The notes below the pieces were generated by a model. The model was not told the DNA's origin, ran no database searches, and was given only the letters and a program-made list of their open reading frames with translations. Positions 13,467 through 19,870 of a stretch of 20,335 nt of DNA are shown one piece after another. Location: the IMG/VR virus record IMGVR_UViG_3300027851_000765, positions 1-20,335 of that record. One strand, given 5' to 3'. The DNA is from a virus. Every line of letters begins with the position of its first letter. The stretch's first letter is position 1. Both the position numbers and the translations under genes were made by a program.

Positions 13467-14471
13467 CTAGGCTGCGAGGTTGAGGCCGGAGAGCTGGGCG
13501 AACGCGCCCTGCAGATGCTCGACGGTCAGCGGCTTGTCGGAATTCAGGGACACCAGCAGCGCGCCCTCGAACGTCATTTCGACGTTACGAAGGCCGCCCG
13601 GCCGGGCAGCGATCGACTGCAGGAAGTCCAGCTCGCGCTTGGTCAGCACCTCGCCGTTGGCGTCCGCCCAGGCCTGGGCATAGGCCGACACGTCGCGCGG
13701 ATCTGGCTTGAGGATCACGCGGCGCTGGGCGATCCGGCTCGATACCTGGCTGAAGGCGCGTCGCGTGCCGTTGCCGCTGATCTTGGAGCTGAGCTCCTCA
13801 TTGCCGATCAGCACGATGCCGATCGGCATTCCCCGGCGGCGGGTCGTGTCGTTCACCGCGCGCAGCTGCTCGATCGCCTTGTCAGACAGCAGCTGGGCTT
13901 CATCGACGATGATCAGGCCCTTGGCCTCGGCGGCCTTGTCCACCACGCGCTTGGCCAGCACCTGGGGCGTGCCCCGGTTCTCGCCTTCGCCCATGGCCGA
14001 CAGGATCTCCAGCAGCATGGTGGGCACGCCGCTGGTCGAGGGGTCCATGGTGGACAGCCAGGCGCGGCTTTGTGCGGTCGCGCAGTACTGACGGGCGGTG
14101 GCCGTCTTCGATACGCCAGGCGCCCCGGTGATCATCACCAGGCGGCCCATCTCACGGGCCATGTCGAACAGCGCCAGGATCTTGTCCGACGTGTAGAGCG
14201 GCTGAAACGTCGGCGCGACGGGCAGGCGCAGGCCTTGCGCCGCGATCCGCTTGCGACCCGACAGCCATTTGAACAGCGCTGCGGCCGGGACGTTGTTGTC
14301 ACCGCCATAGCTGCCCTTGAGGTACGAACTCAAGGTCGATTGCGGCACTTCCGCCTGACGACCGATCTCGGCCTGGCTTAGGCCGTCCAGGAGCTTGATC
14401 TCCTCGACCTGGCGCCGGATCTCGGCGTGTTCGAAGCTGTCGAACTCGGTCTTGGCAGGGTTGAGGTTCAT
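13467..14471 (-). CDS. MuB-like AAA+ ATPase, transposition target protein
   Basis: ATP-dependent DNA-binding partner of the transposase, which in Mu selects target DNA and gives target immunity. The 334-residue protein has an N-terminal helix-turn-helix (about 30-58: GLSQAEIGRQAEVPQSTLSS), Walker A GAPGVSKT (116-123), Walker B LIIVDEAQ (186-193) and a sensor-1-like VLIGNEEL. FSQVSSRIAQRRVIL provides the Arg finger region. Length exceeds Mu B (312) slightly. ATG 14469-14471 has AAGGAAA 6 bases upstream. It is separated from the transposase by 63 bases that contain a strong hairpin, the only such gap between the two genes. Confidence 0.93.
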   Translation of the reverse strand: MNLNPAKTEFDSFEHAEIRRQVEEIKLLDGLSQAEIGRQAEVPQSTLSSYLKGSYGGDNNVPAAALFKWLSGRKRIAAQGLRLPVAPTFQPLYTSDKILALFDMAREMGRLVMITGAPGVSKTATARQYCATAQSRAWLSTMDPSTSGVPTMLLEILSAMGEGENRGTPQVLAKRVVDKAAEAKGLIIVDEAQLLSDKAIEQLRAVNDTTRRRGMPIGIVLIGNEELSSKISGNGTRRAFSQVSSRIAQRRVILKPDPRDVSAYAQAWADANGEVLTKRELDFLQSIAARPGGLRNVEMTFEGALLVSLNSDKPLTVEHLQGAFAQLSGLNLAA

Positions 14472-14534: not shown

Positions 14535-16505
14535 TCATGAGCGGCGGAACAGGGCGATGGTCCGGTCCTGCTGCTCGGTGAAATCTGTGTTGACGGGCGC
14601 GGCCGCCGGCTGGAGGACCTTGGGGAAGTGGCCGGGGACGACGTTGCCGGGCAGATCCGAGCGGAGTTCCTCGGCGCTCTCATGCGGCCGCATCAGATCG
14701 ACCAGCTCATCCGACAGCATCTGGCGCTCCAGCGACGCGACATGGGCGACGGCCTTCACGATCCTGCGCTGCTGCTTTTTGCGCTCGCGGCCCTCTTCGG
14801 CGTTGGCGAACCCGACCTTGTCCCAGCACTCGGCGAAGCCCAGATAGACGCCGCCCAGGCTGTAGACGTGCAGGCCGGCGTGCAGGTCTTCGGCGTCGAA
14901 GCGCGCGGCGATCTTTTCGCCGACGTGCTCGATGAGGAAGTCGCCCCAGTAGCGGTTGCCCGCCAGGATCAGGCCTTCGCCCTTTTGGCGGACCTTGAGC
15001 CCTTCGACGCACAGCATCGCCTGGCGCAGCTGCTCGGGCGTGGCCCTGGGGACCAAGGCGTTGGCGTAGCTTTCGGCATAGGCCTGGTCGAACGACAGCT
15101 TCTTGCGGCAGGCCTTGGTCGCGCGGCCCAGGCGCGCGTTGTGGCGTTGAATGCCGTCAGCGACGATCCGGGTGAACTCTTCGATGTCCACTGTCCGCTC
15201 GCCTGCGTCGGCGGGCTTGTGGAGGGGGTTGTTGCCCACATAGGCGCCCTGGAAGGCCGGGTGCGTACCGATGTGCTCTTCCAGGTCGCGGAACGAACGC
15301 TCGATGGGCTTGGACTGGCCGCTGTAAGGTGTGGTGAAGTGGACCTCGACGCCCAGCTGCACCAGCAGGCCGACCTGGTCGTCCTCGCGGATCGCAAACC
15401 GGAACCGGTGGGCGGACCCGCCGGTCAGCCATTTGGAGGCGAAGGCCCGGCCGTTATCGAAGAAGCACAGGCGCGGAATGCCATGGTTCTTGAAGACCTC
15501 GGCGAACACCTTGCGCACCGCGTTGGCGTTCTCCGACCGGCACAGGTGCCAGCCCAGGACCCTGCGGCTGTAGAGATCCTGGATCATGATCATCATCGGC
15601 CGGTCGGGCTTGGTCCCGTCGCGCCAATCGACGATCACATCCCATTTGTGACCATCGACATTGACCGCTTCCATGGCGTGGAAGGTGGTCTCGTCGCGCT
15701 CGATCCACGGCAGCTCGCGGCGCAGGGCGTCGTCGCCTTCGCGCAGCAGGATCCGCACCGAGCGGTTGATCCGGGTCTTCACCCATCGCGCGATCGTCTT
15801 CTCGGAGGGCAGAACCCAGCCCAGCGGCTCGCCAATCTCGACCGTTTTGGTAAAGGCCGCGGCCACGGTCGGTCCCGCGAAACGCAGGTAGTAATCCTTG
15901 AAGAACTGCCAGGCGGCGGGGGTGCATTCGGCGCCGGCCGAGCGGCCCTGATAGGCCGGGGCTAGATAGGCCACCCGATCGCAGACATCGACCAGGCGGA
16001 TCAGACGGAACCACCCGTACAGGGTGCTTTCGGAGACCTCGGGCTCGCGCTTGGCGGCGCGCGCCTCGCGACGAAGGCCGGCCACGACCTCCTGGACCGC
16101 CTGCACCTTGCCCAGGCCCCGCGCTAGCATCTCGACGCGCTGGATCAGCTCCAGGCGGCGCTTGGCGACGGCCTGCATGGACGGCGACAGCGACCCATAC
16201 CGCTTCCAGACGCTCTCGCGAGACTGGGCCGGCGCGGCCTTGCCGGTCTGGGCCGGCATCGCCATCGAGAGCTTCAGCCGGGCCGCGTCGGGCAGCAGAG
16301 ACAGATGATACTCGACGCCGCCGCCTCGGCCCTTGCGAGGCCGGCTGCAGGCCATCCCCTCGCCGTCGATGGTCATCGACCAGTCCTCGCGCTCGGCGAT
16401 CATCTGAACGCCGCGCTTGGTGGTCGGGAGACCTGGAAGGCTCATCTCGGCCAGTTCGGCGACCGTGAACCACTCCTGCGCTGTGATCGGCACGTGCGGG
16501 CTCAT
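14535..16505 (-). CDS. MuA-like DDE transposase
   Basis: Catalyses strand transfer in replicative transposition and lysogenic integration. The 656-residue protein (MuA is 663) starts with the Mu-type end-binding winged helix (EWFTVAELAEMSLPGLPTTK, 11-30, then RGVQMIAEREDW). The catalytic RNase H-like domain carries the DDE triad: Asp284 in VNVDGHKWDV, Asp350 in FFDNGRAFASKW, and Glu402 in GQSKPIERSFRD. A beta-barrel and a basic C-terminal domain follow (ERKKQQRRIVKAV near 575). The ATG at 16503-16505 overlaps the upstream stop as ATGA and has GGGGAG upstream; a longer in-frame start at 16679 would run inside the preceding gene. All catalytic residues are intact, so the enzyme is probably active. 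Confidence 0.97.
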   Translation of the reverse strand: MSPHVPITAQEWFTVAELAEMSLPGLPTTKRGVQMIAEREDWSMTIDGEGMACSRPRKGRGGGVEYHLSLLPDAARLKLSMAMPAQTGKAAPAQSRESVWKRYGSLSPSMQAVAKRRLELIQRVEMLARGLGKVQAVQEVVAGLRREARAAKREPEVSESTLYGWFRLIRLVDVCDRVAYLAPAYQGRSAGAECTPAAWQFFKDYYLRFAGPTVAAAFTKTVEIGEPLGWVLPSEKTIARWVKTRINRSVRILLREGDDALRRELPWIERDETTFHAMEAVNVDGHKWDVIVDWRDGTKPDRPMMIMIQDLYSRRVLGWHLCRSENANAVRKVFAEVFKNHGIPRLCFFDNGRAFASKWLTGGSAHRFRFAIREDDQVGLLVQLGVEVHFTTPYSGQSKPIERSFRDLEEHIGTHPAFQGAYVGNNPLHKPADAGERTVDIEEFTRIVADGIQRHNARLGRATKACRKKLSFDQAYAESYANALVPRATPEQLRQAMLCVEGLKVRQKGEGLILAGNRYWGDFLIEHVGEKIAARFDAEDLHAGLHVYSLGGVYLGFAECWDKVGFANAEEGRERKKQQRRIVKAVAHVASLERQMLSDELVDLMRPHESAEELRSDLPGNVVPGHFPKVLQPAAAPVNTDFTEQQDRTIALFRRS

Positions 16506-16984
16506 CGGCGGGCTCCCCGGCCCACCTGCAGGGGCGCAAGCCCCGACAGACGCTTGGCCTCTGCGGCATAGTGTTCGGCTTGCTTGCGGGCAAAGGCGGC
16601 CTGGGCCAGCAGGGCTTCCTCGCCCTGCAGGATGGTCAGGCCTTCGTCGGCCAGGACGACGTTCCACAGCCACAGGCATCCTGTGGCGCGGGCGAAGGCC
16701 ACGAAGCGCACCAGGCTGATCGTGTGGGTCTCGCGCGCCTGCGAGGTGTAGGCGTCGATCATCGACTTGGTGACTTCCGTCCCCAAGATCTCCGACATCT
16801 TCCGGGCGATGTCGTAGCGATCCATCCCGCGCTCGCGGGCCTCTTCGATAGCCCGCGCCATGGCGCCGGAGATGCGGCCGTTGAAGTCCAGGGCGCCGCC
16901 CAGTTCGCGCGGTGTCTCCACCGGGAACAGTCGCGCGCCGCTGAACATGTCCAGCGTGTGTTCGTCCCGAGCGCGCTTAACCAT
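16502..16984 (-). CDS. Conserved Mu-like phage early protein upstream of the transposase
   Basis: A 160-residue protein of a type I know from many alphaproteobacterial Mu-like prophages just before the transposase, with no proven function. Typical elements: ISGAMARAIEEARERGMDRY (about 38-57), then DIARKMSEILGTEVTKSMID (58-77), a helix-turn-helix-like region, AYTSQARETHTISLVRFVAF, and a C-terminal helical arm (AFARKQAEHYAAEAKRL). Probably DNA binding. The ATG at 16982-16984 has GGGGAG 8 bases upstream. The stop overlaps the transposase ATG by 4 bp, so the two are coupled. Confidence 0.82.
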   Translation of the reverse strand: MVKRARDEHTLDMFSGARLFPVETPRELGGALDFNGRISGAMARAIEEARERGMDRYDIARKMSEILGTEVTKSMIDAYTSQARETHTISLVRFVAFARATGCLWLWNVVLADEGLTILQGEEALLAQAAFARKQAEHYAAEAKRLSGLAPLQVGRGARR

Positions 16985-17035
16985 GGGGACGACTCCCCTT
17001 ACGGGTCACCATCGCAACGAGCCGGGAGACGAGAT

Positions 17036-17464
17036 TTGCGAGACGGCAGCCGCGCCCTTCCGGCCCTACGACGACGCCTGCGGATCGCGCGCGATCTGCT
17101 CCACGACCAAGACCGGATACGACTTCACAACCTGCTGCTGTCGATGGGGCGGGTTGAGACTGAGCAGTCGGTTCGGAAGCTTCAAACGCACGCCGTAACG
17201 TTGCTCGTTCGGCTTCCCCCCAGCGACCGCCGCTCGATGCTAGCAGCCATGCCGCTCGATCAGCGTCTGTTAACTGCTTACGCCATGGCGGCATGGGCGC
17301 AGAAGACCCTGGAACTATTCGAAAAGATTGATCGATATGCTCAGGGGCCGCTCGACCTTGAGCGTTGGGCTGGACCAGCCGCGCTTGACCTTCTTGATCG
17401 ACACGAAGCAGACGACGGTTGGCTTTGGCCTTACCCGACGCGGGGACCTTTCGGGCCGCTTTAG
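17036..17464 (+). CDS. Opposite-strand orphan gene inside the early operon (142 aa, unknown)
   Basis: The only rightward gene inside the leftward early operon. TTG 17036-17038 has GGGAG 8-9 bases upstream. A hand count of its first 67 codons gives about 73% G+C at position 3 and 46% at position 2; the overlapping leftward frame would have its wobble base on the poor one, so the rightward reading is the better gene. The C-terminal half has clearly lower third-position G+C than neighbouring phage genes, a sign of separate origin. The product is soluble and helical: RIARDLLHDQDRIRLHNLLL, then PLDQRLLTAYAMAAWAQKTL and a Trp-rich tail (DDGWLWPYP). No family recognised. It may be a lysogenic cargo gene (moron). 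The upstream gap of 51 bases shows no clear promoter, so expression could start inside the neighbour. Confidence 0.6.
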   Translation: MRDGSRALPALRRRLRIARDLLHDQDRIRLHNLLLSMGRVETEQSVRKLQTHAVTLLVRLPPSDRRSMLAAMPLDQRLLTAYAMAAWAQKTLELFEKIDRYAQGPLDLERWAGPAALDLLDRHEADDGWLWPYPTRGPFGPL

Positions 17465-17484
17465 GGGGTGCGACAGTCTGGCGC

Positions 17485-18465
17485 TCAGTCATTCCAGCCG
17501 CCGTTCACCAGGTCCCAGCCGCCCGGCAGCGCTTCACCACTGAGCCAGTGCAGCATGGCGTCGCGATGGGTCTTGGGCGCCGCTTTCCAGACCTTTTGGA
17601 AGGCCTTCACGGTCTCATCGACCGGTCTTTCAGGCGCCTTCGTCGGCGTCTTTCCGGCCGCGTAGACCTGGGCGTCGGCGAACTTCGTCGCGCGGCCGTC
17701 CGTCAGGGCCTCTACGATGCGCAGCTGCTGGGCGGGGTCGGCGACACCCGCGATCTGGCGCAGCAGGCCCTCGTTTTTGCCGAGCTTGGAGCCGGAAACC
17801 TTGGCGTGGACGGCGGGGGAGAGGCCGCGAGCGACGACCAGGGCATTCTTCACCGTCATCTCAGATAAGCCGAGGTCTGCGGCGGTCTCCGTGGAAAATC
17901 CCATAGCCGGCGGGGTGTTTCCCAGTAATTCGACAAACTTTGTCGAATTACTGGGGCGGCCGCGCTTGGGCGTAACAGTGCCATCGGCCGACTGGACAAC
18001 CCTGTCAGGGTGCAGCTTGGCCCACACCCGCAGACGGGCGCTGACAAACAGGGCGCGCTCATAGGGCGTAAGCCCGGCGCTGATGAGGTTCTCGTCGATC
18101 TCGACAAGTTCGGCTTGGTCGTCCGTGAGGTTACGAACGTCCGCCAGGATCTCGGCCCACCCCTCAAGGATGGCCGCTTCCAGCCGGTGGGCACCGGCGA
18201 CCAGGATGAACAGGCCCTCCTCACCCTCGACGGTCGAAGGCCGCACGATGATCGGCGAGATCTGGCCGCTTTCGCGCATCGAGACCCGCTTGGCCTCGAC
18301 CTTTCCGGGCGTCGTTGGACGCAGCCGGTTGCGGACAATGATTCGATCCACTCGGACCGAGCGGCCCTGATGGGCCGGCGCGACACTCGCGACGCGCGCA
18401 TACGCCGGGAGGGGTGCCTCTTGAGTGGCACCCGACTTGATCTTTTTCGCTTCCCCCGAGGCCAT
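17485..18465 (-). CDS. ParB-like (ParB/Srx fold) DNA-binding protein
   Basis: A 326-residue protein of the ParB/Sulfiredoxin type found in the early region of some Mu-like phages. The N-terminal domain (about 33-140) has the strand SVRVDRIIVRNRLRP and the signature LFILVAGAHRLEAAILEGW (85-103; GAHR is the CTP/phosphate-binding element of ParB-like proteins), then LVEIDENLISAGLTPYERAL (120-139). A helix-turn-helix region follows (about 189-215: GFSTETAADLGLSEMTVKNA). It lacks a partner ParA gene nearby. It could silence or organise phage DNA, or have nuclease activity as proposed for some relatives. The linker between the two domains is encoded by a 35-bp perfect palindrome. The gene follows Ner after 2 bases. 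Confidence 0.87.
   Translation of the reverse strand: MASGEAKKIKSGATQEAPLPAYARVASVAPAHQGRSVRVDRIIVRNRLRPTTPGKVEAKRVSMRESGQISPIIVRPSTVEGEEGLFILVAGAHRLEAAILEGWAEILADVRNLTDDQAELVEIDENLISAGLTPYERALFVSARLRVWAKLHPDRVVQSADGTVTPKRGRPSNSTKFVELLGNTPPAMGFSTETAADLGLSEMTVKNALVVARGLSPAVHAKVSGSKLGKNEGLLRQIAGVADPAQQLRIVEALTDGRATKFADAQVYAAGKTPTKAPERPVDETVKAFQKVWKAAPKTHRDAMLHWLSGEALPGGWDLVNGGWND
17921..17955. repeat. 35-bp perfect palindrome inside the ParB-like gene
   Basis: Arms CCCAGTAATTCGACAAA (17921-17937) and TTTGTCGAATTACTGGG (17939-17955) are exact complements around one base. It encodes residues about 171-182 of the ParB-like protein with codons such as TTA, AGT and TTT that are rare in this GC-rich setting, so DNA-level selection is likely. 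It could be a ParB or repressor binding site, or an RNA hairpin. No U run follows on either strand. Confidence 0.85.
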
Positions 18466-18467
18466 GT

Positions 18468-18755
18468 CTATCTGGCCTCACCGATTTGACGGTGCAAATC
18501 CCGTTTCTGGGACGTATTGTCCTCAGAGGCAGATGGCGAGGTCTCGAACCGGCCTGGGAACAACTTCTCAAGCGTCTGATCGAGAGCAACGGAGATCGCT
18601 ATGGCGGTGGCTTTTACCGAGCGTCCTCGCAGCACATCGCGAACCGAATACGCGGGCAGGTCCATGGACCGCTCGAACGCCCTCACGGAACGAAATTTGA
18701 TCCGGATAGACGCTTTGATCGTCTCCGGATGGGGAGGGTGTGTCTCGTCAATCAT
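18468..18755 (-). CDS. Ner-like early regulator
   Basis: Small DNA-binding repressor made first in lytic growth; in Mu, Ner turns down both the repressor and early promoters. The 95-residue product shows the Ner/Nlp pattern: PPHPETIKASIRIKF (7-21), then the helix-turn-helix SVRAFERSMDLPAYSVRDVL (23-42) and a terminal helix with ALDQTLEKLFPGRF (57-70), whose LFPGRF-type end resembles the W-P-S-R-Y of Ner. Length exceeds Mu Ner (75) by a polar tail. ATG 18753-18755 abuts the repressor ATG on the other strand; an upstream in-frame ATG at 18815 would lie inside the repressor gene. It is the first gene of the early operon. Confidence 0.85.
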   Translation of the reverse strand: MIDETHPPHPETIKASIRIKFRSVRAFERSMDLPAYSVRDVLRGRSVKATAIAISVALDQTLEKLFPGRFETSPSASEDNTSQKRDLHRQIGEAR

Positions 18756-18840
18756 ATGAGCGCGGTCCGTAAATCCCATAAACAGGATACTCGCCCCACA
18801 GGAGATAGTGGTCAAGCAGATAATCCCGATAATGGGACAT
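18751..18840. promoter_or_regulatory. Immunity switch: back-to-back starts and two candidate operators
   Basis: The repressor ATG (18756-18758) and the Ner ATG (18753-18755) touch, so the promoters for each gene must lie inside the other. Two dyads occur within the start of the repressor gene: ATCCCATAAACAGGAT at 18773-18788 (4-bp arms) and TCCCGATAATGGGA at 18824-18837. This stretch is poorer in G+C than its surroundings. They are candidate operators for repressor and Ner; binding is inferred from position alone. Confidence 0.45.
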
Positions 18841-19469
18841 CCGCGTCCGCTTTTTCGGATAGACTTAGAAGGGCGCTGTCCGGCCGCGTTTCCGCCGAGG
18901 TGGCGCGTAACATCGGCATCCCTGCCCAGACGCTGGACGGGTACAAAAAAGGCGCGATCCCGTCAGCGGATCGGGCTCTGGCGCTCGCAGATCAGCTGGG
19001 CGTCGAGTATCGCTGGCTGATCGCTGGAGTAGGCCAGCAGGCTACGTCACTCCCGGTCGCAGCGCCCGCAGACACTGTCGTTTTGGACCGGTTTGACCCC
19101 TTCTCGTTCGGCGAATTCGGCAAGGGCGAGCCAGTCGAACAGGTCACGGTTCCCCGTTGGCTGATGGCGTCCATCAAGCAGACGACCGGCCTTTGGCTCT
19201 GCGAAATGCCGAGCAATGCGTTGCCAGAAGTGGCTGCAGAAGGAGAGATGATTGTCTGCCGAGACGCGGACGTGCCGCTTCAAGATCGGCGGGTCTATAT
19301 TTTCATGATCGAGGGACGACCAGTCGTCCGCCGAGTGTTTGTCAAACCAGAAGGCCTGCAACTTTCAGGTGAAAGCGCTGACGACACGATCCTTTTTCGT
19401 CCAGAAGATGCGGAACACGTCGTCGCGATGGGCCGCGTGCTAGCCGCCATCTCTCTCAACCAGGTGTGA
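18756..19469 (+). CDS. CI-like phage repressor with S24/LexA-type C-terminal domain
   Basis: Master lysogeny repressor. The 237-residue protein has a flexible, polar N-terminus (1-30), a helix-turn-helix domain (about 33-90: VSAEVARNIGIPAQTLDGYK), a linker and an S24-like C-terminal domain (about 130-233). In this domain the usual self-cleavage dyad is changed: Ser153 in LCEMPSNALPE has no GDSMEP context and VVRRV (191-194) replaces the expected Lys by Arg, so RecA-triggered cleavage may not occur. MuA-type phages often use such a repressor instead of Mu c. I use the ATG at 18756, abutting Ner; GGGAGGG lies about 16 bases upstream, so spacing is poor. The 86-residue gene behind it follows after 3 bases and is probably cotranscribed. 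Confidence 0.88.
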   Translation: MSAVRKSHKQDTRPTGDSGQADNPDNGTSASAFSDRLRRALSGRVSAEVARNIGIPAQTLDGYKKGAIPSADRALALADQLGVEYRWLIAGVGQQATSLPVAAPADTVVLDRFDPFSFGEFGKGEPVEQVTVPRWLMASIKQTTGLWLCEMPSNALPEVAAEGEMIVCRDADVPLQDRRVYIFMIEGRPVVRRVFVKPEGLQLSGESADDTILFRPEDAEHVVAMGRVLAAISLNQV

Positions 19470-19746: not shown

Positions 19747-19870
19747 GTTCCCAGTTAGAAAACGGGCGGCGCCATCGGCGACCGCCCGTTTTTCGTTGTG
19801 GGGCTGGGGTTTGCGCGAACTGGGAAGCGGAAACCTAACTGGGAAGCTCACTTCCCACTTCCGTTCCCAC
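19747..19870. repeat. Cluster of five TTCCCA/TGGGAA sites at the phage left end
   Basis: TTCCCA occurs at 19748-19753, 19852-19857 and 19864-19869, TGGGAA at 19821-19826 and 19840-19845. Longer shared forms are CTAACTGGGAAG (19835-19846) and its complement around 19748. One pair forms a hairpin-like dyad TGGGAAG/CTTCCCA (19840-19857). The cluster may be transposase end or repressor binding sites; it overlaps the terminator region. Confidence 0.5.
19759..19793 (+). terminator. Factor-independent terminator of the repressor operon
   Basis: Perfect arms AAAACGGGCGG (19759-19769) and CCGCCCGTTTT (19782-19792), followed by further T residues, 25 bases after the membrane-protein stop. This ends rightward transcription from the repressor operon before the phage end. 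Confidence 0.9.

Follow-up and report, generated by a model that had tools for sequence, protein, structure and literature searches.

The closest described systems to the locus analyzed here are ParB-parS (Spo0J/ParB of chromosomes and plasmids), Noc-NBS, and KorB-OB of plasmid RK2. ParB-parS shares with the phage-type protein family described below the ParB-N domain, the helix-turn-helix (HTH) and a dyad site. However, parS is a single conserved palindrome of even length (TGTTTCAC-GTGAAACA), whereas the phage loop sites are odd and differ from phage to phage, and the conserved parS sequence TGTTTCACGTGAAACA is not matched by these linker palindromes, which are odd and of other sequence. The canonical ParBs lack the loop and have GERR as Box II, whereas the phage-type proteins have GxHR and no ParA. 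In Bacillus subtilis, a parS site is located inside spo0J. The DNA sites of the phage lambda O protein also lie inside its own gene, in part coding for an inter-domain region, but the lambda O/origin system is different in that it has repeated iterons, serves replication initiation, and involves another protein family.

A few HTH residues set the bases read in the ParB/Noc specificity switch (Jalal et al. 2020, PMC7383237), and the phage family shares this property. The specificity residues of ParB/Noc are 173, 179, 184, and 201 (PMC7383237). In contrast, the phage code uses two columns, F+16 and F+17 (aligned to 177 and 178), with many natural switches and a site inside the gene. Caulobacter ParB N178 was reported to contact parS (PMC7383237), and its equivalence to F+17 is our inference from an alignment through the GxS motif. 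KorB likewise is a ParB-family regulator that recognizes an odd palindrome (oligo operator TTTTAGC-G-GCTAAAA) and acts in transcription (PMC11790492); it has several plasmid operators, whereas the phage family has one site within the coding sequence of the protein itself. A survey of the ParB-CTPase fold (Kaljevic et al. 2025, PMC12704722) noted that many phage members are orphans with no ParA, and its main text does not mention palindromes or coding-sequence sites. We found no description of in-gene sites of this kind in the open-access literature, subscription papers and preprints being outside the scope of this search.

The window studied here is a stretch of 20,335 nucleotides that, as predicted from its sequence, is part of a Mu-like phage. 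A divergent c-repressor-like gene is followed by genes for a Ner-like repressor, a ParB-like protein, an unknown ORF, a regulator, transposase A, and MuB (Table 1). The six genes from Ner-like to MuB are on one strand and are tightly spaced or overlapping. The ParB-like gene precedes transposase A in the same order in RcapMu, Aussie, StopSmel, POA1180, and RR1-B. The c-repressor-like ORF exceeds the likely gene in length, and a terminator-like inverted repeat (AAAACGGGCGG / CCGCCCGTTTT, window positions 19759-19792) is located past a small ORF behind the repressor gene.

Table 1. Coordinates of the features discussed in the text (window positions unless a contig is named)
Feature	Position	Strand	Remarks
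ParB-like gene, 326 aa	17485..18465	-	ParB_N domain, ~35-aa loop, HTH, C-terminal helices
Variable-loop codons, aa 155-188	17902..18003	-	between ParB-N and HTH; contains the palindrome
35-bp perfect palindrome	17921..17955	-	CCCAGTAATTCGACAAA-G-TTTGTCGAATTACTGGG; codes for aa 171-182 of the ParB-like protein
HTH, aa 189-213 (recognition helix, aa 201-213)	17827..17901	-	AF2 secondary structure, conserved motif
Codons of K206 and N207	17845..17850	-	residues covarying with half-site k6 and k3 family-wide
Ner-like repressor gene	18468..18755 (start approximate)	-	upstream of ParB-like gene, same operon; phrog_769 transcriptional repressor, E=2e-8
Divergent c-repressor-like gene	18486..19469	+	phrog_4 transcriptional repressor, E=5e-11, match aa 116-324
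ORF, 171 aa, no family match	16977..17492	-	downstream; overlaps ParB-like stop
Early-operon regulator gene	16502..16984	-	downstream; phrog_2345 transcriptional regulator, E=1e-36
Transposase A (MuA-like)	14535..16553	-	downstream, same orientation; phrog_310, E=6e-144
MuB-like DNA transposition protein	13467..14471	-	phrog_296, E=6e-59
DUF3102-type gene with AACGGACAnnnTGTCCGTT	L225:2-586		
DUF3102-type gene with AACGGACAnnnTGTCCGTT	L228:8816-9727		
DUF3102-type gene with AACGGACAnnnTGTCCGTT	L240:5039-6025		
DUF3102-type gene with AACGGACAnnnTGTCCGTT	L245:3263-4180		
DUF3102-type gene with AACGGACAnnnTGTCCGTT	L247:1-504		
DUF3102-type gene with AACGGACAnnnTGTCCGTT	L253:6389-7300		
DUF3102-type gene with AACGGACAnnnTGTCCGTT	L262 ORF (308 aa)	-	

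The first-pass annotation had described the palindrome in the ParB-like gene as perfect, improbable, and written in rare AT-rich codons, and these points were borne out. The two 17-bp arms (17921-17937 and 17939-17955) show 100% complementarity on either side of a 1-nt centre, none of the other inverted repeats in the window comes near it in quality, and the chance expectation for such a palindrome is about 1e-5 per window at the window base composition. It starts in phase 0 of the coding sequence and encodes P171-S-N-S-T-K-F-V-E-L-L-G182. The GC content is 43%, compared with 65% for the whole gene, and several of the codons used are rare in eleven coding sequences of the window: TTA accounts for 4 of 346 Leu, AGT for 8 of 209 Ser, AAT for 13 of 84 Asn, and TTT for 17 of 122 Phe codons. 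The claim that both strands encode nearly the same peptide is true (PSNSTKFVELL and PSNSTNFVELL), but it is a trivial result of the palindrome being in phase.

The ParB-like protein meets PF02195 (ParB_N; E=2e-7, 31.4 bits against a curated cut-off of 26.3) and matches the ParB-like partition protein phrog_3264 (E=1e-36), while the cut-off of TIGR00180 (canonical ParB, NCBIfam) is missed by the window protein (48.5 vs 58.45 bits). The top Foldseek matches of its AF2 model (pLDDT 84.8) are Noc, ParB, Spo0J, and KorB, with E values of 2e-9 and weaker. According to the model, the protein has an overall ParB fold with N domain and HTH. The pLDDT falls below 50 at residues 171-173 and 179-186; the residues encoded by the palindrome form the least ordered loop of the model, and K206 and N207 are placed in the recognition helix. 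The HTH motif conserved in the family is F..xTAxxxGxSxRxV.

For comparison, we used 153 homologue representatives with less than 75% identity, including 138 with the phage-type loop and 15 canonical chromosomal ParBs, the latter all lacking this variable loop. Alignment of homologues revealed palindromes that differ in sequence and share one place, the variable loop between ParB-N and the HTH. A mismatch-tolerant palindrome score of >=8 within the 105 nt preceding the HTH was reached by 108 of the 138 phage-type genes (78%) versus 30 of 900 control windows from the same genes (3.3%; Fisher 1e-89), and by 1.0% of codon-shuffled loops. Exact arms of >=9 within the 120 nt preceding the HTH were present in 54/138 genes versus 12/718 control windows. 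None of the 15 canonical chromosomal ParBs had arms >=9 there, and we rejected the loop palindrome as a general property of chromosomal ParBs on this basis. A clear palindrome is missing in about a fifth of the homologues. As judged from these comparisons, the palindrome of the window is one case of a family-wide feature.

Two sequence classes are prominent among the loop palindromes: AACGGACAnnnTGTCCGTT and its relatives, and odd palindromes centred on CAA(C/G)TTG or AAA(C/G)TTT with very variable arms. The window palindrome is of the second class, and its peptide NSTKFVEL is comparable to NSVKFTEL (L163) and NSANFAEF (L173), both of which are also encoded by palindromic DNA. The sequence of the palindrome changes from phage to phage and its symmetry is kept. 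The closest relative of the window gene (L003, 59% identical) has no palindrome at the aligned place. Absence of the feature from this relative, as suggested by the first comparison, was rejected after a loop-wide scan found a moved site (TAATGCGGCAAACATTGCCACATTA, L003:1632-1656) 54 nt upstream of the window's position, and the two genes may represent an apparent turnover of sites within one loop. Absence in close relatives had been named beforehand as an outcome that would refute selection on the DNA. This outcome applies in part and to the letter only, at the aligned place in L003, but the other loop palindrome of L003 fits the residue-base code described below (RN with G6 and A3).

We analyzed the symmetry of 106 aligned odd palindromes, with k denoting the distance from the centre. 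Positions k2 (A-T) and k5 (G-C) are nearly invariant. At k4, k6, k7, and k9-k12, most or all pair types were seen and both arms change together; for example, k6 is occupied by G-C in 57, C-G in 31, and T-A in 16 palindromes. The window half-site has A at k5 in place of the nearly invariant G, so the contacts of the window protein may differ in detail. Within each of two natural sister pairs, L279/L131 (73% nucleotide identity in the aligned part) and L285/L254 (81%), synonymous changes in the two arms (Thr ACG to ACT, Ser TCC to TCA) go together with a change from R to F in the helix.

These data bear on an RNA hairpin in the mRNA, an option raised in the first-pass annotation, which could act as a pause between the two domains, an attenuator, or a translation control element. 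The place between the domains is conserved, the arms would pair in RNA as a 17-bp stem closed by a short loop, and a three-nucleotide loop is geometrically possible. However, the excess of G-U over A-C expected of an RNA hairpin was not found at imperfect pairs in the arms (k >=2), although RNA stems tolerate G-U: there were 21 G-U and 18 A-C pairs, at an expected G-U share of 0.48. In addition, the centre-adjacent pair, which cannot form in RNA, is still complementary in 57% of palindromes (always in the CAACTTG/CAAGTTG class), and covariation with two residues of a DNA-recognition helix (see below) would be unexpected. We consider an RNA hairpin very improbable. Since the two arms switch by synonymous codons and A-C is as frequent as G-U, we conclude that the constraint acts on DNA.

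The identity of the bases was compared with the protein by calculating mutual information between half-site positions and 250 protein columns. The palindromes had been chosen blind to the HTH, and the codons of F+16 and F+17 are outside the palindromes. For k6 the best column was F+16 (corrected mutual information 0.74, next 0.21), and for k3 it was F+17 (0.51, next 0.24). These are adjacent recognition-helix residues, corresponding to K206 and N207 in the window protein. At F+16, R occurs with G at k6 in 42/42 cases and K in 10/11, E occurs with C in 20/21 and Q in 10/11, and the aromatic class (F/Y/W) is represented by F with T (6/6) and Y with T (4/4). At F+17, R occurs with C at k3 (G on the other strand) in 67 of 69 cases, while K, L, N, I, Y, T, or A occurs with A in 35 of 36. 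The resulting code is chemically sensible, and the window fits it with K206 and G6, and N207 and A3.

The association also holds on a tree from which the loop and HTH columns were left out. For F+16 and k6, 21 of 33 changes of residue class coincide with the predicted base change (5.8 expected, P=3e-11), and for F+17 and k3 the respective number is 20 of 22 (2.3 expected, P=1e-23); all coinciding branch changes go in the predicted direction. Among disjoint related pairs, k6 differs in 29/30 when the F+16 class differs and in 2/43 when the class is the same. Changes at k6 are only partly explained by F+16, as 16 base changes occurred without a change of residue class. All seven genes from outside the training set match at both positions (L054, L058, L279, L285, L396, L397, and L399); L054 and L058 are weaker tests because they are close relatives of training members, and the L397 palindrome has a 2-nt centre.

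The covariation bears on two other explanations. One is an operator for a different phage regulator within the early operon, either the Ner-like or the c repressor, as the first-pass annotation had also suggested, and both of these repressor genes adjoin the ParB-like gene. This option is disfavoured because the site covaries with helix residues of the ParB-like protein itself, although the repressors were not put through the same test; the palindrome class was also found in genes without a Mu-type context (L227, L256, and the DUF3102 genes). We regard it as highly improbable. The other is a mutational product without function, arising by hairpin-templated (quasi-palindrome) correction or as a small mobile palindrome that entered a tolerant loop. 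As this explanation would allow, the loop can have any sequence, the peptide encoded by the palindrome shows poor conservation, and the window and L003 have their sites at different places. Against it are the relative place common to 78% of a diverse family, the conservation of k2 and k5, the residue-base code, the synonymous two-arm switches, and the lack of extra copies in the genomes checked, which leave it extremely improbable.

The earlier proposal of selection at the DNA level is strongly supported by the conserved place, the symmetric variation, and the covariation with the recognition helix, and the same three lines of evidence strongly support the option it had named first, an autogenous ParB-type site, in the absence of a binding assay. 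We are highly confident, without binding data, that the ParB-like protein has this palindrome, located in its own gene, as its specific DNA site. The conserved position, symmetric variation, covariation code, synonymous switches, and single site are supported by computation, while actual binding (by a dimer, including in vivo) and its effect are inferred. We propose that a dimer would read the dyad with two HTH domains; in each half-site, F+16 (K206) would read the base 6 nt from the centre, here G, and F+17 (N207) the base 3 nt from the centre, here A. The codons that hold the site would be those of the loop immediately preceding the HTH, which is flexible and tolerant of sequence change. Because the site lies in loop codons of its own gene, lock and key are co-inherited; they would survive phage recombination together, and by our interpretation few mutations would change the specificity.

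The number of sites was assessed in several genomes. Each of 12 phage records of 35-60 kb contains exactly one AACGGACAnnnTGTCCGTT site; an extra 3-mismatch match in one of them is a poor palindrome. RcapMu has one GGGAAAACTTTTCCC, and the window record, which is incomplete, has one site. Specificity could drift fast, since a phage genome usually has a single site. The further copies sought following the first-pass annotation were not found in the 20,335-base record, a part of the phage genome, where the 25-bp core occurs only once at <=3 mismatches. A mobile repeat was rejected, as searches beyond the record gave only one weak chance-like phage match, one plasmid match, and isolated 16-mers. 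The plasmid match (24/25 to the palindrome core) is located between cas6 and a WYL regulator in Cylindrospermopsis (L051:2001-2025; NZ_CP060823.1 119827-119851), and is probably an unrelated operator or chance.

With regard to function, the bound protein would exert autogenous negative control on the early operon (ParB-like, then MuA and MuB), acting either as a roadblock or, once loaded within the operon, as a nucleotide-dependent clamp. The site is single, transcribed, and upstream of the transposase genes, so a protein bound to it would be in the best position to impede transcription of its own operon, or else to load at this point and act over the early region. There are no expression data, and we hold autogenous control of the early operon only tentatively, at slightly less than even chances. 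Alternatively, the same site could be a parS-like loading or partition site for organization or segregation of phage DNA, without autogenous regulation. The ParB fold is compatible with this role, and canonical ParB and KorB load clamps at such sites (PMC12704722, PMC11790492). However, no ParA is annotated in RcapMu, and no ParA-binding motif was found in the window protein, this motif being present in 1 of 138 phage-type versus 12 of 15 canonical proteins. A partition role is less likely because both ParA and the ParA motif are missing. Mu-like prophages, being integrated, do not require partition. Box II is GAHR in the window protein and GxHR in 131/138 phage-type proteins, replacing the GERR of all 15 canonical ones, and clamp behaviour is not to be assumed since the family motif is GxHR rather than GERR. 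The similar motif GCHR occurs in sulfiredoxin, an ATP-binding relative, and the phage-type family with GxHR may have a nucleotide preference that differs from CTP. The label 'centromere-like' in the first-pass annotation is not sustained, given no ParA gene, almost no ParA-binding motif, and one site per genome. We consider a parS-like role unlikely without dismissing it, and prefer autogenous regulation of the early transposition operon to a role in partitioning.

It is possible, although we would lean against asserting it, that a general design keeps lock and key in one gene, with several families of DNA-binding phage proteins (Mu-like ParB-like, MT-A70-fused, and DUF3102) keeping their own site in loop codons near the HTH, the site and the specificity residues being inherited and recombined as one cassette. 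If true, related phages would rapidly evolve orthogonal specificities as tags of self-identity or immunity. The target of a poorly characterized and often misannotated gene ('ParB-like nuclease') could be read from its own sequence by a two-position residue-base code that is backed by dozens of natural switches, a natural data set ready for the study of the evolution of protein-DNA specificity. It also suggests how a mosaic phage genome keeps a regulator matched to its site, as one gene holds both.

Proteins of DUF3102-type phage genes (Table 1) carry AACGGACAnnnTGTCCGTT, encoding the peptide KTDxxSVL, near the HTH, and their helix, where readable, ends in ...RxARR, matching the prediction of the ParB-like code. 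Among 337 alphaproteobacterial genomes, only one weak match to DUF3102 homologues was found. From sequence comparison alone, these genes suggest that the in-gene site extends beyond the ParB-like family. The AACGGACAnnnTGTCCGTT palindrome also occurs just before 'ELGVEERTARRH' / 'ELGVNERTARRR' in an MT-A70 methyltransferase protein (L256:316-1563) and its short relative (L227:367-936). Finally, the AACGGACA palindrome is present in multiple copies in three contigs (L242:10081-10356, L246:1232-2058, and the L270:6975 region): there are three copies within 280 bp, two copies that border a small ORF of the ParB-like type, and a gene in which TDTMSV units are repeated in tandem.
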